Shown here: positions 18,023 through 43,888 of the stretch, piece by piece
Numbering within the stretch: the stretch's first letter is position 1
Layout: each line of letters opens with the position of its first letter
Assembly (NCBI RefSeq): GCF_021631985.1
Contig: NZ_CP070225.1
Location: forward strand, 5,580,001-5,644,000
Origin: Sandaracinus amylolyticus
Lineage (GTDB): Bacteria > Myxococcota_A > Polyangia > Polyangiales > Sandaracinaceae
Direction of reading: 5' to 3'
DNA length: 64,000 bases
Position numbers and translations under genes: made by a program
The notes under the pieces: model-generated
What the model saw: the letters and a program-made list of their open reading frames with translations, nothing else
Databases searched by the model: none
Told to the model about the DNA's origin: nothing

Positions 18023-20317
18023 TCAGTTGCAGCCCGGCGGATTGCCCGCGAGCGCGCAGGGAGCGCAGCGCTCGCCCGTCTGACAGGTCCGCTGCTGCAG
18101 GAGCGGAAGCTGCCAGCTCTCCACGAGGCAGTCGGGCACGCACACGCCGCTGTTCTCCGCCGAGAGCGGCGGGGTGCACTGCGCGAACTCGTGGCTCGGG
18201 TTCGCGAGGAACGGGTTCGGCACACAGATCTGCTGCACGCCGTCACGCGCCGCGCACGCCCGACTCGCGACTTCCAGCGCGTCCTGCTGCTCCATCGTCG
18301 TGAGCTCCGGGGGAACGCAGCGACCGCGTGCGCCCACCGTGTCGTGCACACAGCAGTTCGGGAACGTGAACGCGGGCTCGCTCGGCATGTCGCCGTTCAC
18401 GCGGCACGCGCCGCTCTCCGCGCCCGTGATCGGGTCGAAGCAGGGCGCGCAGCGATGGGTCGCGGGGCAGGTCGACTGCGGGAGACGATCCCCCTGGCTG
18501 CTCACTGCCGGGAGGCAGCTCGGCAGACAGCGTCCCTCCGCGCCCGCGATCGAGTCGCAGGTCATGGGGCGGAACGTGGGATCGGTGAAGTCGTCGGGCG
18601 CGCAGAGGCGCGGCGCGGTGCAGCCCGTCGAGTCGAGCTGCGTGCGCTGCGCGGGCGAGACGAGCTCGGGCGGGACGCACGAGCCGAGGCCACCGCAGCA
18701 GTTCGGGAACGTGTACGCGGGCTCGTCGGGCATGTCGCCGTTGAGCCGGCACGCGCCCGTGTCGTCACCGCTGATCGGGTCGAAGCACGGCGCGCACAGG
18801 TGCCCCGCGTCGCACGTGCCCTGCGACAGACGATCGGCCTGCGCGCCGATCGCCGGGAGACACGCGGGCAGACAGCGTCCCTCCGAGTCGTCGATCGAGC
18901 GGCAGGTCGTGGGCTCGGTCCCCGCGATCAGCGAGTCGGGCGCGCACAACGCGCCGGCGTCGGTGCAGGTGTCGGTGCCCAGCTGCGCGCGCTGCGCCTC
19001 GGGCACCAGCGTCGACGGCACGCACGCGCCGATCCCGCCGCAGCAGCGATCGAACGTGTTCGCGGGCTCGTCGGGCATGTCGCCGTTGAGCCGGCACGCG
19101 CCGGTGTCCTCACCGCTGATCGGGTCGTAACAAGGCGCGCACAGGTGCGCCTCGGTGCACGTGCTCTGCGGGAGTCGATCGGCCTGCTCGGCGATCGAAG
19201 GAAGGCACGAGGGCAGGCAGCGTCCTTCGGCGTCGCCGAGCGAGCGGCAGCTCGTCGGCTCCGCGCCCGCGATCAGCGCGTCGGGCGCGCAGAGCGTGCC
19301 TTCGTCCTCGCAGGTGTCGGTGCCGAGCTGCGAGCGCTGCGCCTCGGGCACCAGCGTCGAGGGCACGCACGCACCGATGCCGCCGCAGCAGCGATCGAAC
19401 GTGGTCGCCGGATCTTCGGGCTCGTCGCCGTTGAGCCGGCACGCGCCGGTGTCCTCGCCGTTCGTCGGGTCGTAGCAGGGCGCGCAGAGCTCACCCGCAT
19501 CGCACGATCCCTGCGACAGACGATCCGCCTGCGCCCCGATCGCCGGGAGACACGCGGGCAGACAGCGCCCCTCCACGCCCGCGATCGAGTCGCAGCGATC
19601 GGGCTGCGACGTCGGATCGATCAGCGCGCTCGGCGCGCAGAGCGTGTTCTCCTCGGTGCACGTGTCGACGCCGAGCTGCTCGCGCTGCGCCTCGGGCACG
19701 AGGTCGGTCGGCACGCACGAGCCCGCGCCACCGCAGCACTCCATGAACATGTCCGGCGGCTCCTGCGGGCCGGGATCGCAGCCGAGGTTGCACACGCCGG
19801 TGCTCTCGCCGGTGCGCGGGTCGTAGCAGGGCGCGCACTCCTCGCCCTCCTGACATCCCTCTTCCGGCAGCATGTCCGCCTGCTCGCTGATCTGCGGGAT
19901 GCAGCGCGACACGCAGCGACCTTCGGCGCCCCCGACCGAGCGGCACGTGGCGAGCAGGAACTCGCCCGTCGTCTCGATGAACGGATCGGGCACGCACTTG
20001 CTGCCCTCGTCGCAGTTCGCGAGCAGCGTGGCCTGCTCCTCCGAGACGAAGCTGTTGGGCACGCAGTGCGCGTCGATGCAGCCCTCGAGGAGGCACGGCG
20101 GTAGGAGGTCGGGCGCGATCGGTGGCGGCATCGCGTTCGGGCACGCGAAGCCGGAGTCACTGCCCGCATCGCCTGGGCCCGCGTCGAACGATGTGCTCGC
20201 GTCCGGCGAGCCGCCGTCGTCGTCGCCGCAGCCTACGAGCGAGGCCGCGACGATGCCCGCGAGCCACCACCTCCAACGCTCGGCCGAAGGCCGTCGCATG
20301 GTGCGCGCCATCACCAT
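18023..20317 (-). CDS. Large Cys-rich tandem-repeat lipoprotein
   Basis: A 764-residue predicted lipoprotein (leader with SLVGC lipobox, then an Asp/Gly/Ser-rich linker). The body is about five tandem repeats of 115 residues with roughly 12 cysteines each. Constant pieces are LCAPDALI, EGRCLPSCLPSI, QADRLPQSTC, LCAPCYDPISGEDTGACRL, DRCCGGIGACVP and LVPEAQRAQLGTDTC. I do not recognise a named family; the fold should be disulfide-stabilised and extracellular. ATG at 20317 has GGAAG upstream, with other in-frame ATGs at 20311 and 20299. It is divergent from a TetR gene, whose upstream repeats probably control both. Confidence 0.75.
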   Translation of the reverse strand: MVMARTMRRPSAERWRWWLAGIVAASLVGCGDDDGGSPDASTSFDAGPGDAGSDSGFACPNAMPPPIAPDLLPPCLLEGCIDAHCVPNSFVSEEQATLLANCDEGSKCVPDPFIETTGEFLLATCRSVGGAEGRCVSRCIPQISEQADMLPEEGCQEGEECAPCYDPRTGESTGVCNLGCDPGPQEPPDMFMECCGGAGSCVPTDLVPEAQREQLGVDTCTEENTLCAPSALIDPTSQPDRCDSIAGVEGRCLPACLPAIGAQADRLSQGSCDAGELCAPCYDPTNGEDTGACRLNGDEPEDPATTFDRCCGGIGACVPSTLVPEAQRSQLGTDTCEDEGTLCAPDALIAGAEPTSCRSLGDAEGRCLPSCLPSIAEQADRLPQSTCTEAHLCAPCYDPISGEDTGACRLNGDMPDEPANTFDRCCGGIGACVPSTLVPEAQRAQLGTDTCTDAGALCAPDSLIAGTEPTTCRSIDDSEGRCLPACLPAIGAQADRLSQGTCDAGHLCAPCFDPISGDDTGACRLNGDMPDEPAYTFPNCCGGLGSCVPPELVSPAQRTQLDSTGCTAPRLCAPDDFTDPTFRPMTCDSIAGAEGRCLPSCLPAVSSQGDRLPQSTCPATHRCAPCFDPITGAESGACRVNGDMPSEPAFTFPNCCVHDTVGARGRCVPPELTTMEQQDALEVASRACAARDGVQQICVPNPFLANPSHEFAQCTPPLSAENSGVCVPDCLVESWQLPLLQQRTCQTGERCAPCALAGNPPGCN
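18290..20000 (-). repeat. 345-bp coding tandem repeat
   Basis: DNA repeat inside the Cys-rich lipoprotein gene. The conserved CAGCAG/CAGCAC anchor (coding Cys-Cys) recurs at 18351, 18696, 19041, 19386 and 19734, giving spacings of 345, 345, 345 and 348 bases. The central copies are nearly identical in DNA, which indicates recent amplification or gene conversion. Confidence 0.85.
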
Positions 20318-20350
20318 CCCCTGTTCTTCCGGCTTCCCAAGCCGGACTGC

Positions 20351-20412
20351 GTGAGCCAAGAAACCGTGTGAGTTAAGACAGCGTGAGTTAACACGCGCAT
20401 TATCGATGCGCG
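20351..20412. promoter_or_regulatory. Direct repeats and dyad, candidate TetR operator
   Basis: The 134-base gap between the Cys-rich lipoprotein (start 20317) and the TetR gene (start 20452) holds three direct repeats GTGAGYYAA at 20351, 20368 and 20383 (the last two identical GTGAGTTAA, 15 bases apart). It also holds a perfect dyad CGCGCAT-TATCG-ATGCGCG at 20394-20412. The AT-rich repeats stand out in this GC-rich window. TetR proteins bind dyads, so 20394-20412 is the better operator candidate; the direct repeats may serve another regulator. Confidence 0.5.
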
Positions 20413-20451: not shown

Positions 20452-21147
20452 GTGGAATTCCGCGACAAGATCCTAATTGGCGCCGCCACCGCGTTCGGCG
20501 CGCTCGGCTATGCGAACACGCGCGTGGAGGACATCCTCCAGGAGTCCGGCGTGTCTCGCCCGACGTTCTACAAGCTCTTCGAGAGCAAGGACGACGTGTT
20601 CGAGACGCTCTCCGCGATGCATCACGCGGACGCGCTCGAGCGCATGCACCACGCGCTCGTGACCGCGGAGAACGGCATGGAGCGCCTCGCGTCGGTCATC
20701 GAGGCGTTCCTGCGATGGCGCGCGGGGCTCGGTCGTCTCGGGCGCGTGCTCGACATGGAGACGCGCAGTCCGCACAGCCATCTCGTGCGTCATCGCGAGG
20801 TCGTCATGAAGACGCTGCGCGATCAGTGGCAGCACGAGATGGTCGCGGGCGGACGGCCGCAGGTCGACCCGCTGATCTTCGAGGCGTTCATGGCGGCCGC
20901 CGAGCGCGTCGCCGACACCCTGCCCTTCGATCGCGCGATCACCGAGACCGACATCGCGCGCCGCAAGGCGGTGCTGCTCCGCATCGTGTCCGCGACGCTC
21001 GCCGCGGCCGACGAGCGCACGCCCGCGCTGCCGCTGCACCCCGATCACAACGCGCCGCGCGCGCCGCGCGCGAAGAAGTCGTCGGGCAAACATCGCCGCG
21101 TGGGCGCGCCTCCGCCGCCGCCGGGCGCGACCAGCAGCCGGCGCTGA
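20452..21147 (+). CDS. TetR-family transcriptional regulator
   Basis: A 231-residue TetR regulator: an N-terminal helix-turn-helix (KILIGAATAFGALGYANTRV, then ILQESGVSRPTFYKLFES) and an all-helical ligand/dimer domain with the usual weakly conserved sequence. The C-terminal 35 residues are a basic, proline-rich tail. The start is GTG at 20452, with a possible TGATAA -10 element only 10 bases upstream, so the transcript may have almost no leader. It lies between two huge secreted Cys-rich proteins and probably controls one or both. Confidence 0.88.
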   Translation: MEFRDKILIGAATAFGALGYANTRVEDILQESGVSRPTFYKLFESKDDVFETLSAMHHADALERMHHALVTAENGMERLASVIEAFLRWRAGLGRLGRVLDMETRSPHSHLVRHREVVMKTLRDQWQHEMVAGGRPQVDPLIFEAFMAAAERVADTLPFDRAITETDIARRKAVLLRIVSATLAAADERTPALPLHPDHNAPRAPRAKKSSGKHRRVGAPPPPPGATSSRR

Positions 21148-21201
21148 CGGCAGGTCGCGCGCTCGGTCGTCGTACGATGGGCCCTTCGCCGGAGGTGCCC
21201 G

Positions 21202-24200
21202 TTGCGTCGCGTCCATCTGCTCGCTGCGCTCGCGCTCGTCGCGTGCTCCTCGGAGACGTCGCCCTCGTCGTGCGACGAGCACGAGTGCGACGACCCCGCT
21301 CGCGTGTGCGTCGAGCGCGACGACGGGCTCGCGTGCGTGTGCCGCCCCGGGACCGTCGAGCGCGAGGGCGCGTGCGTCGCGCCGGACGCGTGCAGCGCCG
21401 ACACCTGCAGTCATCACGGCACCTGCGACGACGCGTCGGGCGCACCGATCTGCGCGTGCGAGCGCGGGTACGACGAGCTCGACTGCAGCGGCTGCGCAGA
21501 CGGCTTCCACGACGACGGCGCGGGCGGATGCACCGACCAGGCGTGCGAGCCCGATCCCTGTCCCGCCGATCGCCGCTGCATCGCGAGCCCCGAAGGTGCG
21601 CGCTGCGAGTGCCCTGCGGGCACCCACGACGACGACGGCGCGTGCGTGCCCGACACGACGTGCCTGCCGACGAGCTGCAACGGCCACGGAAGCTGCGACG
21701 ACGCGAGCGGTCGCCCGAGCTGCGCGTGCGAAGAGGGCTGGATCGGCGCGTCGTGCGACGGATGCGACGAGGCGAGCGGCTTCCACGACGACGGCGCGGG
21801 CGGGTGCACGATGGATCCCTGCCTGCCGAATCCGTGCACTGCCCCGAGCCAGAGCGTGTGCGCGGTGATCGAGGGCGGTGAGATCGAGTGCCGGTGCGAC
21901 CCGGGCTTCCACCTCGAGGGCGGGGCGTGCGTGATCGACGAGACGTGCGAGGCGAGCTCGTGCGGCGATCACGGTACGTGCGCGGTCGTCGACGGACGCA
22001 TCGTGTGCACCTGCGAGACGGGCTGGACCGGCGACGCCTGCGATGCGTGCGACGACGGCTACCACGACGACGGCGCGGGCGGATGCACGACGGATGTGTG
22101 CCTGCCGAATCCGTGCACTGCGCCGAGCCAGAGCGTGTGCATCGACGAGGGCGGCACCGCGCGCTGCGAGTGCGATCCCGGATATCACTCCGACGGAGTC
22201 GGCGGCTGCACGGACGACCCGTGCGTGCCGAGCCCCTGCGCCGCGATGGGCATGGCGTGCCGCGTCGTGGGCGGGAGCGCGGAGTGTTACGAGCCGCCGT
22301 GCGACGACGACAATCCGTGCACCGTCGATGCGTTCGACGGCGCGCGCTGCACCCACGCCCCGCGGCCCGATGGCTCGTCGTGCTCGACGACGCTCTGCGT
22401 GCGCGATCAGGAGTGCAGCGCCGGCGTGTGCGGCGGGGGCACGAGCGTGACGTGCGACGACGGAAACCCGTGCACGCGCGACTCGTGCGACGCGATCACC
22501 GGATGCCGCGCGGCGAACGACGACACGCTCGTGCCGAGCGACGGGTTCGCGTGCACGCGGGATCGCTGCAGCGCCGGCGCGCGCGTGCACACGCCCGACG
22601 ACGTCGCGTGCGACGACGGACGTTGGTGCACCGGCACCGCGACCTGTCAGCCGAGCGCGCCGAGCGCGGACGCGAGTGGATGCGTCGTCGCGAACGTGCC
22701 CACGCCTCCGGGGCCCGACGGGCCGTGCCTGCGCTTCGTGTGCAACGACACGACGCGCAGCTTCACGCGCGTGACGTCGACGGTCGGCGCGAGCTGCGAC
22801 GACACGCTCGCGTGCACGACGAGCGATCGCTGCACCACGAGCGGCGCGTGCGCGGGCACGCCCACCACGTCGTGCGGCGACGTCGACGGCGCGTGCACCG
22901 GTGCGCCGTTCGGCACCGGCGTCGACATCCCGCTCGCGCGCGTGATGGGCCGCGTGACCTACCGCGGGAGCGACACGTTCCCCGACACGCGCCGTAGCTA
23001 CGACGTCGGGCTCTGGCTGCGCAACGAGTCGACGGGCGTGTACACGTCGCTCGAGACCGTGCACTTCTCGACCACGTGGGACGGCGACGGCTATCCCGTG
23101 CAGAGCACGTCGGAGAGCGACGATCGTGTGATCGATCTGCCGGTGCTCCCCGGCGTCTACGACGTCGTCTACATGCGCTGGACCTCGCGCGACGACGAGG
23201 GTCGGCGGGTGTTCGGGCACGAGGCGAGCGACCCCTATCCGTTCGCGCTCCACGTGCTGCAGGAAGACGTCGTGATCGGCCCGGGCACGACGCCGCTCGA
23301 CGTCGACGTCGCGCCGGTGCGCGTGACCGGCGCGGTGCGTTACGCGGGCAGCACGACGTTCCCCGACACGCGCCGCAGCTACGACGTCGGCCTCTGGCTG
23401 CGCGATCGCGCGACCGGCGTGTACACGTCGCTCGAGGACGTCGCGTTCTCGACCACGTGGGACGGCGACGGGTACCCCGTGCGCACGAACGACACGAGCG
23501 ACGATCGCGCGATCGACCTCGCGGTGCTCCCCGGTCGCTACGACGTCGTCTACATGCGATGGACCTCGCGCGACGACGCAGGACAGCGCGTGCTCGGTCA
23601 CGAGGCCGCCGATCCCTACCCGTTCGCGATGCACGTGCTGCGCGAGGACGTCGTGATCGGCGCGGGCGCGACCTCGCTCGACGTCGACATCGCGCCGGTG
23701 CGCGTGACCGGCGCCGTGCGATACGCGGGCGGCACCTCGTTCCCCGACACCCGCCGCTCGTACAACGTCGGGCTCTGGCTGCGCGATCGCTCGACCGGCA
23801 TGCACACGTCGCTCGAGGACGTCGCGTTCTCGACCACGTGGGACGGCGACGGCTATCCGATCCGCAGCTCGAGCACGAGCGACGATCGCGCCATCGATCT
23901 CGCGGTGCTCCCCGGTCGCTACGACGTCGTCTACATGCGCTGGACCTCGCGGGACGATGCGGGCCGTCGCGTGCTCGGCCACGAGGCCGCCGATCCCTAT
24001 CCGTTCGCGCTCCACCTGCTGCGCGAGGACGTCGTGATCGGCCCGGGATCGACCTCGCTCGACGTCGACATCGCGCCGGTGCGCGTGAGCGGCGCGATCA
24101 CCTACGCAGGCAGCGCGTCGTTCCCCGACACGCGTCGCTCGTACAACGTCGGGCTCTGGCTGCGCGATCGATCGACCGGGATCCACACGTCGCTCGAGGA

Positions 24201-25188
24201 CGTCGCGTTCTCGACCACCTGGGACGGCGATGGCTATCCGATCCGCAGCTCGAGCACGAGCGACGATCGCGTCGTCGATCTCGCGGTGCTGCCCGGTCGC
24301 TACGACCTCGTCTACATGCGCTGGACCTCGCGCGACGACGAAGGCCGGCGCGTGCTCGGTCACGAAGCGGCTGATCCGTATCCGTTCGCGTGGCACGTGC
24401 TGCGCGAGGACGTGGCGATCGGTGCGGGCTCGAGCGTGATCGACGTCGACATCGCGCCGGTGCGGATCACCGGTGCGGTCACGTTCCGCGGCAGCGCCTC
24501 GTTCCCCGACACCCGACGCTCGTACAACGTCGGGCTCTGGCTGCGCGATCGCGCGACCGGCATGCACACGTCGCTCGAGGACGTCGCGTTCTCGACCACG
24601 TGGGACGGCGACGGCTATCCGATCCGCAGCTCGAGCACGAGCGATGATCGCGTCGTCGATCTCGCGGTGCTGCCCGGCCGCTACGACGTCGTGTACATGC
24701 GCTGGACCTCGCGCGACGACGCGGGCGATCGCGTCTTCGGCCACGAGAGCGCGGACCCCTATCCCTTCGCGCACCACGCGCTGCGCGAGGACGTCGTGAT
24801 CGACGCGGGCGCACGCGCGGTGAGCGTCGATCTCGCGCCGGTGCGCCTCTCCGGCGCGGTCACCTACGCGGGGGGCACGTCGTTCCCCGACACGACGCGC
24901 AGCTACGACGTCGGCCTCTGGATGCGCGATCGCTCGACCGGCATGCACACCTCGCTCGAGGACGTCGCGTTCTCGACGACGTGGGACGGCGATGGCTATC
25001 CGATCCGCAGCAGCGACACGAGCGACGATCGTGTGCTCGACATCCCCGTGTTCCCCGGCACCTACGACGTCGTGTACATGCGCTGGACGTCGCGCGACGA
25101 TGTCGGCCGCCGCGCGTTCGGCCATCAACCGGACGACGCGTATCCGTTCGCGCACCACACGCTGCAGCAGTGCCGCGTGATCGAGTGA
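21202..25188 (+). CDS. Giant lipoprotein: EGF-like region + six 127-residue repeats
   Basis: A 1328-residue predicted surface lipoprotein starting at TTG 21202 (GGAGG just upstream; lipobox ALVACSS). Residues about 20-350 are EGF-like modules with repeated C-x-C-x5-G patterns and conserved GFHDDGAGGCT; 350-575 hold DDGNPCTRDSCD-type Cys motifs. From about residue 578 to the end are six near-identical 127-residue units with FPDTRRSYDVGLWLRD, HTSLEDVAFSTTWDGDGYP, VLPGRYDVVYMRWTSRDD and GHEAADPYPFA. The units are Cys-free and beta-rich. The domain order resembles adhesins; a binding role is inferred. I recognise no family for the repeat unit. Confidence 0.8.
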   Translation: MRRVHLLAALALVACSSETSPSSCDEHECDDPARVCVERDDGLACVCRPGTVEREGACVAPDACSADTCSHHGTCDDASGAPICACERGYDELDCSGCADGFHDDGAGGCTDQACEPDPCPADRRCIASPEGARCECPAGTHDDDGACVPDTTCLPTSCNGHGSCDDASGRPSCACEEGWIGASCDGCDEASGFHDDGAGGCTMDPCLPNPCTAPSQSVCAVIEGGEIECRCDPGFHLEGGACVIDETCEASSCGDHGTCAVVDGRIVCTCETGWTGDACDACDDGYHDDGAGGCTTDVCLPNPCTAPSQSVCIDEGGTARCECDPGYHSDGVGGCTDDPCVPSPCAAMGMACRVVGGSAECYEPPCDDDNPCTVDAFDGARCTHAPRPDGSSCSTTLCVRDQECSAGVCGGGTSVTCDDGNPCTRDSCDAITGCRAANDDTLVPSDGFACTRDRCSAGARVHTPDDVACDDGRWCTGTATCQPSAPSADASGCVVANVPTPPGPDGPCLRFVCNDTTRSFTRVTSTVGASCDDTLACTTSDRCTTSGACAGTPTTSCGDVDGACTGAPFGTGVDIPLARVMGRVTYRGSDTFPDTRRSYDVGLWLRNESTGVYTSLETVHFSTTWDGDGYPVQSTSESDDRVIDLPVLPGVYDVVYMRWTSRDDEGRRVFGHEASDPYPFALHVLQEDVVIGPGTTPLDVDVAPVRVTGAVRYAGSTTFPDTRRSYDVGLWLRDRATGVYTSLEDVAFSTTWDGDGYPVRTNDTSDDRAIDLAVLPGRYDVVYMRWTSRDDAGQRVLGHEAADPYPFAMHVLREDVVIGAGATSLDVDIAPVRVTGAVRYAGGTSFPDTRRSYNVGLWLRDRSTGMHTSLEDVAFSTTWDGDGYPIRSSSTSDDRAIDLAVLPGRYDVVYMRWTSRDDAGRRVLGHEAADPYPFALHLLREDVVIGPGSTSLDVDIAPVRVSGAITYAGSASFPDTRRSYNVGLWLRDRSTGIHTSLEDVAFSTTWDGDGYPIRSSSTSDDRVVDLAVLPGRYDLVYMRWTSRDDEGRRVLGHEAADPYPFAWHVLREDVAIGAGSSVIDVDIAPVRITGAVTFRGSASFPDTRRSYNVGLWLRDRATGMHTSLEDVAFSTTWDGDGYPIRSSSTSDDRVVDLAVLPGRYDVVYMRWTSRDDAGDRVFGHESADPYPFAHHALREDVVIDAGARAVSVDLAPVRLSGAVTYAGGTSFPDTTRSYDVGLWMRDRSTGMHTSLEDVAFSTTWDGDGYPIRSSDTSDDRVLDIPVFPGTYDVVYMRWTSRDDVGRRAFGHQPDDAYPFAHHTLQQCRVIE
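22933..25188 (+). repeat. Six-copy, exact 381-bp coding tandem repeat
   Basis: The anchor GCGCCGGTGC recurs at 23311, 23692, 24073, 24454 and 24835, always exactly 381 bases apart, with no insertion or deletion between copies; the first copy begins near 22933 and the sixth is shortened at the stop. Inner copies are more alike in DNA than the outer ones, as expected from unequal crossing-over. Unit length is 127 codons. Confidence 0.92.
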
Positions 25189-25200
25189 GAGGAGAGCGAC

Positions 25201-25467
25201 ATGGGCATCGTGGTGCGACTGATCGTCCTCGGCCTCTTCGTCCTGGGCGGTCTCGCGCTCTGGGCGCATCGCACCGCGCAGGCGAAGCGCCGCCTCGCGG
25301 AGGTCGACGCCGGCAAGCGCTGCGTCGGGTGCGGCGGCACCGACGTGCGCGTGAACGGCGACGAGGTGCGCTGCGCCGACTGCCTCTACACGACGACGCT
25401 CTCGCGCCTGCGGGCCGAGAAGATCGACGCGTCGGAGCTCTCGCGACTGATGCGCCCCGAAGACTGA
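25201..25467 (+). CDS. Small membrane-anchored zinc-ribbon protein
   Basis: An 88-residue protein: one membrane segment (residues 4-24), then CVGC and CADC pairs 17 residues apart, a zinc-ribbon knuckle facing one side of the membrane. AGAGGAGAG precedes the ATG. It starts 12 bases after the giant repeat protein and is likely co-transcribed. Its stop is 3 bases from the stop of the convergent operon. Function unknown. Confidence 0.65.
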   Translation: MGIVVRLIVLGLFVLGGLALWAHRTAQAKRRLAEVDAGKRCVGCGGTDVRVNGDEVRCADCLYTTTLSRLRAEKIDASELSRLMRPED

Positions 25468-25470
25468 GCG

Positions 25471-27033
25471 TCAGCGCAGGACGAAGCCGAGCGGCGCCTT
25501 GCCCTGCACCTGCGCGTGCTCGTCGCACATCGCGTCGGGCACGCCCGCCGCGCGCATCACGGTCCGCCACACGCGCGCGCTGTCGAGTCGTCCGTCGATG
25601 CCGCGGAACGAGCCGGTCGGCGCGCCGGTCTCGGGATCGGGCGGGTGATAGGTGAACCCGTCGTGCCCGCCCTCGTTCGTCAGCCGGATGTCGCCCCAGT
25701 AGCCGCCGCGGATGCCGCCGCCCGCGAGGATCAGCGTGTTCTTGCCGTCGTTGCCGTAGCTGTTCGCCTTCGGGCTGCGGCTGCCGTCGAGCGTGTACAC
25801 CGCGATCACGGTGCGCTCGTAGAGGCCCGCCTCCTTGAGCTTCGTGATCAGGCGCGCGAGCGGCTTCGAGATCTGCTTCGCCTGGGTGCGCACCGAGAGC
25901 TCGGGGCGGAAGCCGTGCAGATCCATGTAGTCGAACTCGAGCGCGACGGTGCGCGTCACGCCCGCGTTGACGAGCTTGAACGCGTACGCGGTCTGCTCCC
26001 AGATGTGCGCCTTCACGCGATCGTCGGGGCACTCGAAGCTCTCGGTGTCGCCCTCGGTGCACATCTGGTTGGGCACGCCCTCGCTCCAGAACGCGCGCTC
26101 TTCCTCGGTGAGCGGCAGCGAGAGCACGCGCGGCTCGCGCACGTGGAGGATCTCGCGCGCCTCGTCGATCTGCTGCGCATGACCGGTGCGCACGCTGTCG
26201 ACGAACCCACGGCGCGAGAGGAAGCGCTGGTCGAGGCGACCGAGCACCGCGCGCAGCGCGTCGGCCTGCTCCGCGGTGGGCACCACGTTGAGGTCCTCGA
26301 CGAACGCGGGGAACGCGTCGAAGAGCTGCGAGCGCGAGCGGATGCGATCGAGCTCCGCGCCCGGCAGGCCGCCGCCGAAGTGGAAGACGGTGTGGTTCGA
26401 GCGCGAGAGCCCCTTGAACGCGACGCCGTTGCGCAGCGAGGGATCGGCGAGCTTCGCCCAGTGGTTGTGCAGCGACGCGGGCGTCGGGACGCTCGCGTAC
26501 CAGCGCATGTTCCCGCCGTCGGCGGTCGCGGGATCGTTCTCGAACATCGGCATCGCGCCGGCGAGCCGCTCTTCGGCGCGGCCCGGCGAGCGGATCGCGT
26601 TGCCCGCCTCGTGCCCGTGGATCGCGCCGCTCGACGCCTCGCAGTGATCGATCTGCGCGATCGTGTCGAGGTGCGGCTCGAGCTCGTACGAGTCGGCGGT
26701 GAGGTACACGCCGCTCTCGGTGCGCCGGATCTCGCTCTGCTGCGCGAACATCGTGATGCCGTCGCCGGTCTCGCCGCGGCGGACGTCGCCGTAGGTCGCG
26801 ATCCCGGGCGGCACCATCACGTGCATCTGGTCCCACTGATCGCGGAGATCGATCTCGATGAAGATCGTCTCCATCTCGCGGTCCTGCGCGTACGCGGTGC
26901 CGCCGGCCATCTCGTTCGCGGCGAAGCGCAGCGCGCTCGGCACCGCGGGCGCGGCGAGCGCGACGCCGAGGAGCTTCAGGAACGAGCGCCGCTGCACCGC
27001 GCTCATGCGCTCGATCTCGTAGAGCTTCTTCAC
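25471..27033 (-). CDS. Tat-exported DUF1501-type protein
   Basis: A 520-residue protein with a twin-arginine leader (MSAVQRRSFLKLLGVALAA near residue 10). The body resembles DUF1501/DUF1552 secreted proteins of the alkaline-phosphatase-like superfamily, with VALEFDYMDLHGF, YTLDGSRSPKANSYG, NTLILAGGGIRGGYWGD and EGGHDGFTYHPPD. Tat export suggests folding or cofactor loading before export. The start is GTG at 27033, overlapping the stop of the upstream gene (GTGA) with GGAGG in front. Members of these families are often paired with cytochrome-type proteins, as here. The reaction is unknown. Confidence 0.7.
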   Translation of the reverse strand: MKKLYEIERMSAVQRRSFLKLLGVALAAPAVPSALRFAANEMAGGTAYAQDREMETIFIEIDLRDQWDQMHVMVPPGIATYGDVRRGETGDGITMFAQQSEIRRTESGVYLTADSYELEPHLDTIAQIDHCEASSGAIHGHEAGNAIRSPGRAEERLAGAMPMFENDPATADGGNMRWYASVPTPASLHNHWAKLADPSLRNGVAFKGLSRSNHTVFHFGGGLPGAELDRIRSRSQLFDAFPAFVEDLNVVPTAEQADALRAVLGRLDQRFLSRRGFVDSVRTGHAQQIDEAREILHVREPRVLSLPLTEEERAFWSEGVPNQMCTEGDTESFECPDDRVKAHIWEQTAYAFKLVNAGVTRTVALEFDYMDLHGFRPELSVRTQAKQISKPLARLITKLKEAGLYERTVIAVYTLDGSRSPKANSYGNDGKNTLILAGGGIRGGYWGDIRLTNEGGHDGFTYHPPDPETGAPTGSFRGIDGRLDSARVWRTVMRAAGVPDAMCDEHAQVQGKAPLGFVLR

Positions 27034-28244
27034 GGGGCCTCCGGCGACGACGAGAGCTGACGGGCGACCGCGTAGGCGACGCGCGGATGCGCGAGCGCGG
27101 CGACGACGAGGTCGACGAAGGTGGGGCTCGCAGCGCGCGCGCGCGCCGCATCGGCGATGTCGACGAGCAGCTCGCCCTCGACGCCGCGATCGGGATCGAG
27201 ATCGAGCGCGGCCTCGAGCACGCGCTGCGAGGCGCACTCCCAGAACGCATCGCTCTCGGTGAGGGCGGCCATCGCCTCCGACAGGTTCGCGACCTCGCGA
27301 CCGAGCATCTGCGAGGTCTCGTTGGCGCGCCACGGCGGCTCGAGGTGCGAGGCCATGAGCCCGCCGAACGACTCGCCGGGCATGCCGCCCTGGCGCTGCT
27401 CGCCGGTCGCGTCCTCGCGCCAGCGACCGCTCACGTCGAAGCGCACGAAGAGCTGCGCGTGCGCGCCGAACTGACCGTGGCACGCGTAGCAGTGGAACCC
27501 GTTCGCGAGCCCGCTCATCGCGGCCTCGGGATCGGTCTGCTCCTCCGCGCTCAGCGCGCGGAACATCGGCATGAGTCGCTCGCGCTCGAGCGGCGGCTCG
27601 AGCTCGACCGCGAGCGGGTAGTTGCGGCACAGGAACGTGCGCGTGATCGTGCCGGCGCGCGTGAGGTTGAAGCGCCCCTGACGCGCCGCCATGAACGCGC
27701 GCGTCGTGATCACGCCGGCCGCGTAGGGCGCGCCGGTGTCGCACTCGCCGGGCGCACCGCTCGCATCGAAGCACTGCGTGCTCGTGAGGATCTCGGCCCA
27801 CGGGCGACCCTCGCGCACGACGTGCTCGATGATGCGCCCCGGCGCGCCGAAGTCGATGCCGCTCGGATCGACGCCGCCGCTCACGCCGAGCGCGGTCTCG
27901 ACCATCCGTCGTGCGGCGCGCGGCAGGCCGGGCTCGTCGGACCACGACGCGACGACGCTCGGGATCGCATCGCCGCCCATCGTCGCGATCGCGGTGCGCT
28001 CGTCGTCGGTCAGCGTGCGCTCGACGATCACCGGCGCGATCAGCGCGAGGTACGCCTCGGCCTGCGCGGCGGTGACATCGTCGAGCGTCACCTCGCGCTC
28101 CTCGGGCGTGAACGGCTCGGGCTGGCTCGGCTCGCCGGGATCGCGTGGATCGTTGGGGACCGGCGGGTGCGTCATGCCCTCGCCCGGCTCACCGAGCGAT
28201 GCGCTGCATCCTGCGAGCAGCAGCGCGAGCCACACGCGCTTCAC
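27030..28244 (-). CDS. Lipoprotein with one c-type heme motif
   Basis: A 404-residue predicted lipoprotein (ALLLAGCSAS). It has one CxxCH heme-attachment motif, CYACH at residues 252-256, in a helical protein. It resembles the cytochrome-like proteins (DUF1588/1592-type) that accompany DUF1501/1552 proteins, but the domain match is loose. GTG at 28244 overlaps the upstream stop (GTGA), and its own stop overlaps the DUF1501-type gene in the same way, so the three are made in fixed ratio. It probably passes electrons to, or forms a complex with, the Tat-exported partner. Confidence 0.65.
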   Translation of the reverse strand: MKRVWLALLLAGCSASLGEPGEGMTHPPVPNDPRDPGEPSQPEPFTPEEREVTLDDVTAAQAEAYLALIAPVIVERTLTDDERTAIATMGGDAIPSVVASWSDEPGLPRAARRMVETALGVSGGVDPSGIDFGAPGRIIEHVVREGRPWAEILTSTQCFDASGAPGECDTGAPYAAGVITTRAFMAARQGRFNLTRAGTITRTFLCRNYPLAVELEPPLERERLMPMFRALSAEEQTDPEAAMSGLANGFHCYACHGQFGAHAQLFVRFDVSGRWREDATGEQRQGGMPGESFGGLMASHLEPPWRANETSQMLGREVANLSEAMAALTESDAFWECASQRVLEAALDLDPDRGVEGELLVDIADAARARAASPTFVDLVVAALAHPRVAYAVARQLSSSPEAP

Positions 28245-28951: not shown

Positions 28952-29962
28952 TCAGTGACCGCGGCCGCGACCGCGACCGCCGCCGCCACCGCCACCGCGC
29001 ACTTCGACGCCGGCGCTCACCGACACCCGGCCGGGGCTCGGAGGCGCCACGATGACCGCGCCGGGACGGGGAGGCGAGACCACGACGCTCGCCTCGGCCT
29101 CGCGACCACGGCGACCGTACGCGTGCCCGCGGCCACGGCCGGGGTGACCATCACCCTCGACCACGACCACGCCCGGACGCGGCGGCGCGATCACCACCGG
29201 CGGCGGCGGCGGCGCGACCACGACCGTCGCACGGGGCGCGACCGGCGGCGTCACGACGACCGTCGCGCTCGCACGCGGGCGCTCGACCACCACCGCAGCG
29301 CGCGGCGGCTCGGGCGCCTGCACCACCACGGTCGCGCGCGGCGGCTCGGGCGCCTGCAGCACGACCGTCGCGTGCGGCGGCTGCGGCGGCTGCACCACCA
29401 CGGTCGCGCTCGGCGGCTGCGGCGCCTGCACCACCACGGTCGCCTGCGGCGGCTGCGGGCGCTCGACCACCACGGTCGCGCGCGGCGGCTGCGGCGCTCC
29501 GACCACGACGGTCGCGCTCGGCGGCGTCGGCGGCACGAGGATGACCTGCGGCGCGCGCGCGCGGCGCGGCTGACCGCGCACCACGAGCTGCACCTCGGCC
29601 GGCGCGGCGACCGGCGTCACCTCGACGCGCCCCGCGTAGCGGCGCTGGCCTTCGTCCCACGCGAGCGCGACGTCGTGCGGGCGGCCATCGCTGCCCTGCA
29701 CCTGCACCGCCGTCACCTGCGCCTGCGCGTGCGGCATCGGCGCGCCGGTCGCGTCGACGACATAGGCCTCGACCTGTCCGTCTTGCTTCGTGACCAGCTC
29801 GATCCAGGCGTCGTCGCTCGCAGCGACCATCACACCGCCGTGCTGCGCGGTCACCGTCAGCGCGCCCGTTGCGGCCGCGCCCACCGGCGGGGTGGGTTGT
29901 TCACTCGATCCACAGAGCTTCATCAGCGCGAAGAACGCCATCGAGAGCGTCAGAGAGCGCAT
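28952..29962 (-). CDS. VVV/Pro-Pro repeat exported protein
   Basis: A 336-residue protein with a short signal (AFFALMKLCGSS, possible lipobox). A small beta domain (residues 35-125) is followed by about a dozen units of 11-13 residues built as PP-x-ATVVV-Q-AP, then a Gly/Arg-rich end. Alternating beta-strand triplets and Pro-Pro turns suggest a rigid, extended cell-wall or surface stalk. GAGGATCG precedes the ATG at 29962. I know no named family. The repeat occupies about 29160-29550. Confidence 0.65.
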   Translation of the reverse strand: MRSLTLSMAFFALMKLCGSSEQPTPPVGAAATGALTVTAQHGGVMVAASDDAWIELVTKQDGQVEAYVVDATGAPMPHAQAQVTAVQVQGSDGRPHDVALAWDEGQRRYAGRVEVTPVAAPAEVQLVVRGQPRRARAPQVILVPPTPPSATVVVGAPQPPRATVVVERPQPPQATVVVQAPQPPSATVVVQPPQPPHATVVLQAPEPPRATVVVQAPEPPRAAVVVERPRASATVVVTPPVAPRATVVVAPPPPPVVIAPPRPGVVVVEGDGHPGRGRGHAYGRRGREAEASVVVSPPRPGAVIVAPPSPGRVSVSAGVEVRGGGGGGGRGRGRGH

Positions 29963-30138
29963 CGATCCTCCTTGCGTGCGCCGCCAGCGAGGGCCCCGCG
30001 GGAGCCACCGCCCGCACGCTCCGGAGAGCGCGCGGGCCTCGACGTCGGACACCATTTCGTGCGGAGCAGGAGCCCCCGCAGTCGGGCCAGGTTAGCGCCC
30101 CTTCGATGGCCAACTGCACTCGTTTCTTCAAATGAGAA

Positions 30139-41691: not shown

Positions 41692-41791
41692 GAGCGTGAG
41701 CGTGAGCGTGAGCGTGAGCGTGAGCGTGAGCGTGTCGCGTGAGCGTGAGCGTGAGCGTGAGCGTGAGGGTGAGCGTGAGCGTGGGCGGAGC
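41692..41791. repeat. Hexanucleotide satellite (GTGAGC)n, left arm
   Basis: About 16 units of GTGAGC on the plus strand, with a GTGTCGCGT interruption at about 41731-41740 and a GTGAGG variant; degenerate copies with a second GTGTCGCGT continue to about 41820. All frames are open but encode only dipeptide runs (Val-Ser, His-Ala, Leu-Thr), so it is not coding. It is the mirror of the array at 42531. Confidence 0.92.
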
Positions 41792-41913
41792 GGGAGCGTC
41801 TCGCGGGAGCGTGTCGCGTCAGCGTGGCGTGGGCGGAGCCACAGCGGCTGACCGCCATGCTCGGCGGAGACGCGAAGCGCCGGGCGCGACTGCGGCGCCC
41901 GACGCTTCATCGT

Positions 41914-42530: not shown

Positions 42531-42750
42531 CTCACGCTCACGCTCACGCGACACCCTCACGCTCACGCTCACGCGACACGCTCCCGCTCACGCTCCCGCT
42601 CACGCTCACGCTCACGCTCACGCTCACGCTCACGCTCACGCTCACCCTCCCGCTCACCCTCACGCTCCCGCTCACCCTCACGCGACACGCTCACGCTCAC
42701 GCTCACGCTCACGCTCACCCTCACGCGACACGCTCACGCTCACGCTCACC
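42531..42750. repeat. Hexanucleotide satellite (CTCACG)n, right arm
   Basis: About 220 bases of CTCACG/CTCCCG units, the reverse complement of the left array's GTGAGC. ACGCGACAC interruptions occur near 42546, 42571, 42680 and 42723, the complement of the GTGTCGCGT interruptions of the left array, and CTCACC matches the left GTGAGG variant. Shared variants show that both arrays have one origin and lie in inverted orientation around the four-helix gene. Confidence 0.92.
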
Positions 42751-43603: not shown

Positions 43604-43868
43604 TGCGTGCCTGCATCAGGAGCTCCGGCGCCTGCATCAGCGGCTCCGACGCCTGCATCACCTGCTCGTGAGCGTGCATCAGCAGCTCCGACGCCTGCAT
43701 CACCTGCTCGCGCGCCCGCATCAGCAGCTCCGACGCCTGCATCACGAGCTCGCGCGCCCGCATCAGCAGCTCCGACGCCTGCATCACGAGCTCGCGCGCC
43801 TGCATCACGAGCTCACGCGCCTGCATCACGAGCTCACGCGCCTGCATCACGAGCTCACGGCGGTGCAT
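43604..43868. repeat. 21-bp tandem repeat block
   Basis: About 12.5 copies of a 21-base unit around GCCTGCATCACGAGCTC. The copies nearest 43868 are almost identical and those near 43610 are more diverged. Read on the minus strand from an ATG at 43868 the unit encodes ELVMQAR, giving a run of twelve heptads; on the plus strand it encodes LHHELAR. Neither reading continues into recognisable protein. It fills the 332-base gap between the helical-protein gene and the convergent aldo/keto reductase. Confidence 0.85.
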
Positions 43869-43888
43869 CGAGCGCTCGGGAGCGCGAC

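Follow-up and report, generated by a model that had tools for sequence, protein, structure and literature searches.

The gene described here lies in a window of 64,000 bp, the whole stretch that was analysed, from the two-contig, 10.96 Mb genome of Sandaracinus amylolyticus. It codes for a protein of 1328 residues (Table 1), which a signal peptide and a lipobox cysteine motif, and these alone, predict to be a bacterial lipoprotein. The N-terminal part is a cysteine-rich stalk resembling epidermal growth factor (EGF), for which four Pfam models exceed their own cut-offs (hEGF 33.9 bits, EGF_Teneurin 32.5, EGF 24.8, EGF_2 24.7). It is followed by a second cysteine-rich region, the CDDGNPCT linker. 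Relatives show 50-58% identity to the reference row over this linker, which in the window protein scores 26.2 bits against Dicty_CTDC (Pfam), slightly below the cut-off of 27. The C-terminal half of the gene is a tandem array of six units.

The array is strictly periodic. In an offset scan of positions 22801-25188, nucleotide identity was 80.8% at an offset of 381 and at most 37% at the other offsets between 370 and 391. Tandem Repeats Finder (TRF) reports a period of 381 with 5.9 copies at 22920-25165, and the motif STTWDGDGYP occurs six times at a spacing of exactly 127 residues. An earlier note, made from the letters of this DNA, had described six 127-residue units with an exact 381-bp period behind an EGF-like region, and all of this is borne out. 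Its description of the inner copies as nearly identical was too strong: units 2-5 are alike, with 80-88% identity at the protein and 81-89% at the DNA level, while units 1 and 6 share 67-77% of their residues with the other units. The units are also free of cysteine as the note had it, apart from one cysteine in the last unit.

Table 1. Coordinates of the gene and of the parts of the encoded protein.
Feature	Position	Strand	Basis or remark
Gene, 1328-aa predicted lipoprotein	21202..25188	+	TTG start
GGAGGT, Shine-Dalgarno-like, upstream of the TTG start	21190..21195	+	read from sequence
Signal peptide LRRVHLLAALALVAC, lipobox LVAC, Cys at 21244-21246	21202..21246	+	sequence; script calls a lipobox in many relatives
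EGF-like Cys-rich stalk	21268..22281	+	four Pfam EGF models over cut-off
CDDGNPCT Cys-rich linker	22282..22929	+	alignment of relatives; ~216-219 aa where complete
Final pre-array Cys, proposed partner of the C-terminal Cys	22894..22896	+	sequence; near-invariant column in A3; Cys parity
Orphan strand VDIP ahead of unit 1, motif as at the end of complete units	22921..22932	+	30 arrays tabulated
Unit 1, 127 aa	22930..23310	+	
Unit 2, 127 aa	23311..23691	+	
Unit 3, 127 aa	23692..24072	+	
Unit 4, 127 aa	24073..24453	+	
Unit 5, 127 aa	24454..24834	+	
Unit 6, 117 aa, without the final strand	24835..25185	+	
Conserved Cys, residue 5 from the C-terminus	25171..25173	+	

Related arrays were found in many Myxococcota. 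A profile of the six units matched 11 of 96 genomes of the order (E 0.001). Among 317 genomes from the class, 24 were matched by a profile of 20 diverse units (E 1e-5); the same profile matched 18 of 377 genomes drawn from the phylum (E 1e-4). These genome sets overlap. The arrays fall into an EGF type with the architecture of the window protein (open frames of 1236-1506 residues in proteins with six units) and a short type of 554-999 residues, which carries one EGF-like or other cysteine-rich stretch, or none. For a profile of short-type units the figure is 51 out of the 317 class genomes (E 0.001), in part through cross-matching of the EGF type. The window's genome is included in all of these counts except the last, where it has no match. 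A first scan of named genomes, with the six units as query, confirmed nothing; in a second one (linker plus unit 1, and CDD.NPCT linker patterns) 80 loci were kept, of which only L097-L101 bear units. The window's own genome yielded no second copy of the unit; of two weak extra matches (E 0.26 and 0.90), the one that was read (L051) carries no unit. The gene is considered accessory, as neither G012 nor G030, two other genomes from the genus, was matched by the unit profiles. Genome G350 holds two adjoining six-unit paralogues whose cores differ (L191, 2777-6658 and 6610-10509) and two further arrays, L192 with six units and L100 with five. In the two-contig genome G297, one short-type relative (L223) has an open frame of 284 residues with a single unit and is possibly a broken gene.

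The number of tandem repeats in surface proteins of bacteria is often variable, and the earlier note had expected variation between strains here. Between species, however, the number is mostly fixed: six units are present in 68 of the 77 arrays counted in Myxococcota, which are related to each other and so are not independent events. For the EGF type it is 26 of 31 arrays, the exceptions being L048 and L100 (five units each), L193 (three), L045 and L046 (two each). For the short type, counted by hidden Markov model (HMM), it is 42 of 46, the exceptions being L196 and L229 (five each), L238 (four) and L231 (three by HMM, six when read by eye, and counted as not six). The EGF-type count comprises the 30 tabulated arrays and L100; arrays cut by contig ends (L041, L042, L049, L098, L099, L101) were excluded, while L045, in which the linker is cut and the array is whole, was counted. 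The short-type count is made up of 34 arrays (33 with six units, and L196) and 12 from weaker genomes (nine with six, and L229, L238 and L231). All counted arrays are hits of the profile scans; G141 and G157 are outside, L223 was excluded, and further arrays may exist in genomes that have several.

All nine arrays counted in genomes of one or two contigs have six units (EGF type: one each in G000, G280 and G385, two each in G297 and G436; short type: G294 and G295). The nine counts other than six (5, 5, 5, 5, 4, 3, 3, 2 and 2) all come from multi-contig assemblies. In these, near-identical repeats can be collapsed into fewer copies, with the greatest likelihood in the EGF type. Many short-type units have diverged even within one protein, so that the number six is not merely the product of recent duplication.

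Outside the EGF part of the window protein no Pfam or NCBIfam family exceeded its cut-off, no CARDB or immunoglobulin-like (Ig) family matched in Pfam at E up to 1, and a PDB sequence search with the array gave nothing credible. A model of two units, built from 22 sequences, is fair, with a predicted local distance difference test (pLDDT) of 76.9 and a predicted template modelling score (pTM) of 0.74; pLDDT is below 50 at residues 47-63 and at most of 173-191. Like the model of the full array it is all-beta, in agreement with the beta-rich unit that the note had proposed. Among the structural matches listed for the two-unit model are, with Z-scores of 5.2-6.9, DUF3823 domains, a DUF4876 protein, NOMO of the BOS complex, Mfa3 and a region of teneurin-2. 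In Foldseek, Bacteroides adhesins rank high with low TM-scores, and immunoglobulins follow further down. The unit is thus probably a transthyretin-like (TTR-like; prealbumin/CnaB-like) beta-sandwich, and profile matches of two divergent relatives (L094 and L092) agree with this; since all Z-scores are below 8 and the Foldseek TM-scores are low, the fold is supported rather than proven. The note had called the unit unlike any family that its author recognised; in the window protein the unit indeed passes no Pfam or NCBIfam cut-off, but its fold resembles known domains. In a PDB search with the unit profile, WD40 repeat proteins and WRAP-T chains scored best (E down to 7.7e-08); they were rejected, since the match spans only around half of a unit, for which a different fold is predicted.

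The units are kept alike within each array while they turn over between arrays. Unit length in the EGF type takes one value, or nearly so, per array and ranges from 110 to 129 residues between arrays. Conservation within and between arrays is uncorrelated (rho 0.05 over 119 columns; 19 of the 30 arrays, after 11 near relatives and arrays of two or three units had been dropped). Unit positions 41-64 show the highest identity within arrays (0.86-0.93) and are among the lowest between them (0.17-0.22), and the unit edge at 113-120 is least alike within arrays (0.49). Three arrays of G350 are especially informative. Their synonymous codon identity is close to the random expectation derived from the codon use of each array itself (0.41 versus 0.39, 0.42 versus 0.40, 0.49 versus 0.43), yet over all unit pairs the core is identical at 0.82, 0.78 and 0.90. 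Here it is selection, and not recent copying, that keeps the units alike. Each G350 array has its own core, kept in six copies.

A further set of characteristics concerns the two ends of the array. Most PDB domain matches extend from residue 1 to about residue 129 of the unit, so that the unit-end strand LDVDI belongs to the domain fold. The last unit lacks this strand: the 26 EGF-type arrays with six units all measure 5.89-5.93 periods, and the shorter ones likewise 4.92, 2.91, 1.92 and 1.92 periods. A motif like the unit end stands ahead of unit 1 in the 30 tabulated arrays, with letters specific to the array (IDF in G168 and G034). A cysteine is found close to the C-terminus in 31 of 31 EGF-type proteins and within the last 14 residues in 44 of 46 short-type proteins; L216 has none there, and in L228 it is the 18th residue from the end. 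Among the 28 complete proteins with a called lipobox, 25 have an odd number of cysteines ahead of the array and 24 have an even total; odd totals occur in L043, L044, L192 and L193. This parity is affected by a misplaced lipobox in L039, L044 and L086 and is a matter of choice in L190, L192 and L193, where a second cysteine stands beside the lipobox; proteins cut by contig ends were left aside. In L092, L096, L194 and L195 exactly one cysteine comes after the six in the EGF-like stretch and is thereby indicated as the partner of the C-terminal cysteine. Several arrays carry cysteines of their own: the 13 of L186 are a pair in each unit plus one near the C-terminus, and the short-type arrays L227, L230, L233 and L235-L238 have a pair in most units as well as a further cysteine ahead of the array and another close to the C-terminus. 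Finally, a contiguous stretch of 79 residues in 7b5i_AB aligns (75 residues, root-mean-square deviation (rmsd) 3.2) to residues 18..779 of the low-confidence full-array model, which suggests that both array ends lie together in that model.

The missing strand, the orphan strand, the cysteine pattern and this alignment agree with each other, and from them we infer a head-to-tail closure into a ring or tight loop. The protein would be held at the surface by an N-terminal lipid anchor, from which the EGF-like and CDDGNPCT cysteine-rich stalk would carry a head of six like domains placed end to end. The orphan strand before unit 1 would complete the strand-deficient unit 6, a disulfide between the pre-array and the C-terminal cysteine would lock the closure, and the head would thus present six copies of one surface. 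Each lineage would have its own version of this surface, kept alike in all six domains. A lipid anchor, a stalk and six lineage-specific surfaces suggest multivalent recognition, with binding of a repeated ligand, which may be a glycan or, on an adjacent cell, a protein of the same kind; the fold neighbours of the unit include adhesins and putative carbohydrate binders. We give this reading of a clasped surface lipoprotein a probability of about one half.

Several observations weigh against it. The full-array model, built from three sequences, is weak (pLDDT 54.8, pTM 0.52), and the 7b5i_AB range is defined by the first and last aligned residues only, so that it may hold strays. For the two-unit model, Foldseek TM-scores by query length are at most 0.28 in the rows listed. 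In that model, confidence is low (residues 47-63, pLDDT below 50) for the loops with the greatest likeness within arrays; columns 49-64, which fall largely into this region, are occupied in no more than about half of the units. The core of the window array shares synonymous codons beyond expectation (0.75 versus 0.59). Arrays of 5, 5, 5, 5, 4, 3, 2 and 2 units exist, all in multi-contig assemblies, and a true two-unit array could hardly form a ring. No conserved neighbour gene was found when 22 relative loci were compared with the open reading frames (ORFs) of window positions 1-45000; besides the gene and its antisense shadows, the only other matches, all weak, linked L047 and L048 to ORFs in other parts of the window.

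It is quite possible, though we do not think it probable, that the head is an open rod, that is, a stalked adhesin with six domains in a row, in which the number six is simply inherited and the C-terminal cysteine binds another molecule or a local partner. CnaB-like pilins and fimbrial adhesins, which function as open chains, are among the nearest folds, and the existence of arrays of five (L048, L100, L196, L229) and four units (L238) also speaks for a rod. An odd number of cysteines ahead of the array, a strand-deficient last unit with a matching orphan strand, and the prevalence of six would all be unexpected of a free rod.

The likeness of the units might also stem from a young array, with recent unit duplication and drifting copy number, which we consider improbable. 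In a quick tree of 168 units, those of 19 of the 30 arrays form one clade per array (support 58-100), and the 11 arrays that are not monophyletic come from three genera, each represented by at least two arrays in the set. When close species are compared, likeness is often greater among the inner units of an array than between same-position units of the two species. The excess of shared synonymous codons in the window array recurs in most high-G+C relatives, so that duplication or gene conversion has acted there. But same-position units of close species match better on average than units at other positions, the G350 units are old at synonymous sites and yet alike as proteins, and copy number mostly does not drift between species, a level at which this explanation is largely refuted.

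Among known systems, the N-terminal domain of DUF3823 (PF12866; 4fxt, 4yok and 4eiu) has a beta-sandwich similar to the unit (Z 6.9, 6.5 and 5.3). The divergent six-unit short-type relative L094 passes the DUF3823 cut-off (31 versus 27 bits) and reaches 22.7 bits for CarboxypepD_reg (PF13620), under its cut-off of 32.3; the window protein and unit 1 have no Pfam match to DUF3823, nor does the window protein match CarboxypepD_reg. To our knowledge, proteins of these two families are not six-unit clasped arrays. The transthyretin-like domains of NOMO (9c7u) match the unit at Z 6.2, and the divergent relative L092 scores 26.8 bits for NOMO_5th, nearly its cut-off of 27. NOMO is a long chain of such domains in a eukaryotic endoplasmic reticulum membrane protein, with another domain number and no EGF stalk. 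The Mfa/Fim fimbrial adhesins of Bacteroidales are matched by Foldseek (3pay, 4h40, 5cag) and, for Mfa3, at Z 5.6; they are two-domain pilins that polymerise by strand exchange and not six fused repeats. In alpha-2-macroglobulin and complement C3 six beta-sandwich MG domains, differing from each other, form a ring; alpha-2-macroglobulin gave weak matches to the full-array model (7s62 Z 5.0; 7s64 Z 4.7, rmsd 22.3). Beta-propellers are closed by a velcro in which the N-terminal strand completes the last repeat; there the repeat is a blade, whereas in the window protein it is a whole domain and the closure would be an analogous one.

A teneurin-like toxin or toxin-delivery protein would have EGF, cysteine-rich and TTR parts in the order seen here, which is the order described in PMC13018210. 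EGF_Teneurin is among the Pfam matches and the teneurin-2 region matches the unit at Z 5.2. Teneurins, however, have one TTR unit plus a superfold, while the window protein has six TTR-like units and ends at the sixth, with no match to FN-plug, NHL, YD-shell or toxin families (Pfam, E up to 1), so that such a function is very unlikely. Repeats can be mis-assembled, but an artefact in the window is the least credible explanation, given a two-contig genome, six distinguishable units and the same number in other genomes. While the fold itself is already known, no paper on six-domain clasped arrays was found in the searchable literature, which leaves subscription journals mostly outside.

The surroundings of the gene contain further repeats. 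A long ORF runs on the opposite strand (20473-25269), apparently as a shadow of the 72% G+C sequence. The divergent neighbour at 18023-20359 (minus strand, 778 residues) carries a cysteine-rich repeat of about 115 residues (TRF period 345, 4.0 copies, 18362-19738) and matches nothing in Pfam or NCBIfam at E up to 1. On the minus strand at 25486-28241, a DUF1501 protein lies beside a DUF1588-like one, the latter below cut-off, and at 28952-30055 (also minus) an ORF of 367 residues without a Pfam match contains a 36-bp repeat of the PPQPPRATVVV type (TRF 29198-29532). Hexanucleotide arrays are found at 41692-41839 (GAGCGT, 24.7 copies) and 42531-42749 (CTCACG, 35.8 copies), and a 21/42-bp repeat array at 43609-43869 (21-bp unit, 12.4 copies).

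To return to the clasped head, we propose, more tentatively than for the window protein itself, that these arrays may be single-chain pseudo-sixfold toroids distributed across the myxococcal phylum, closed by a strand and a disulfide and, in the type found in the window, raised on an EGF stalk. In every lineage, selection would rewrite all six copies of the recognition surface, and the number would thus be held while the specificity turns over. The number is indeed mostly held at six across the phylum while sequence and unit length change, and in G350 the likeness of the units outlasts the memory of the synonymous sites. Should the head be a closed sixfold ring, it would provide a naturally occurring symmetric scaffold made of a single chain, and it would be a candidate for surface recognition specific to each lineage among these predatory, social bacteria.

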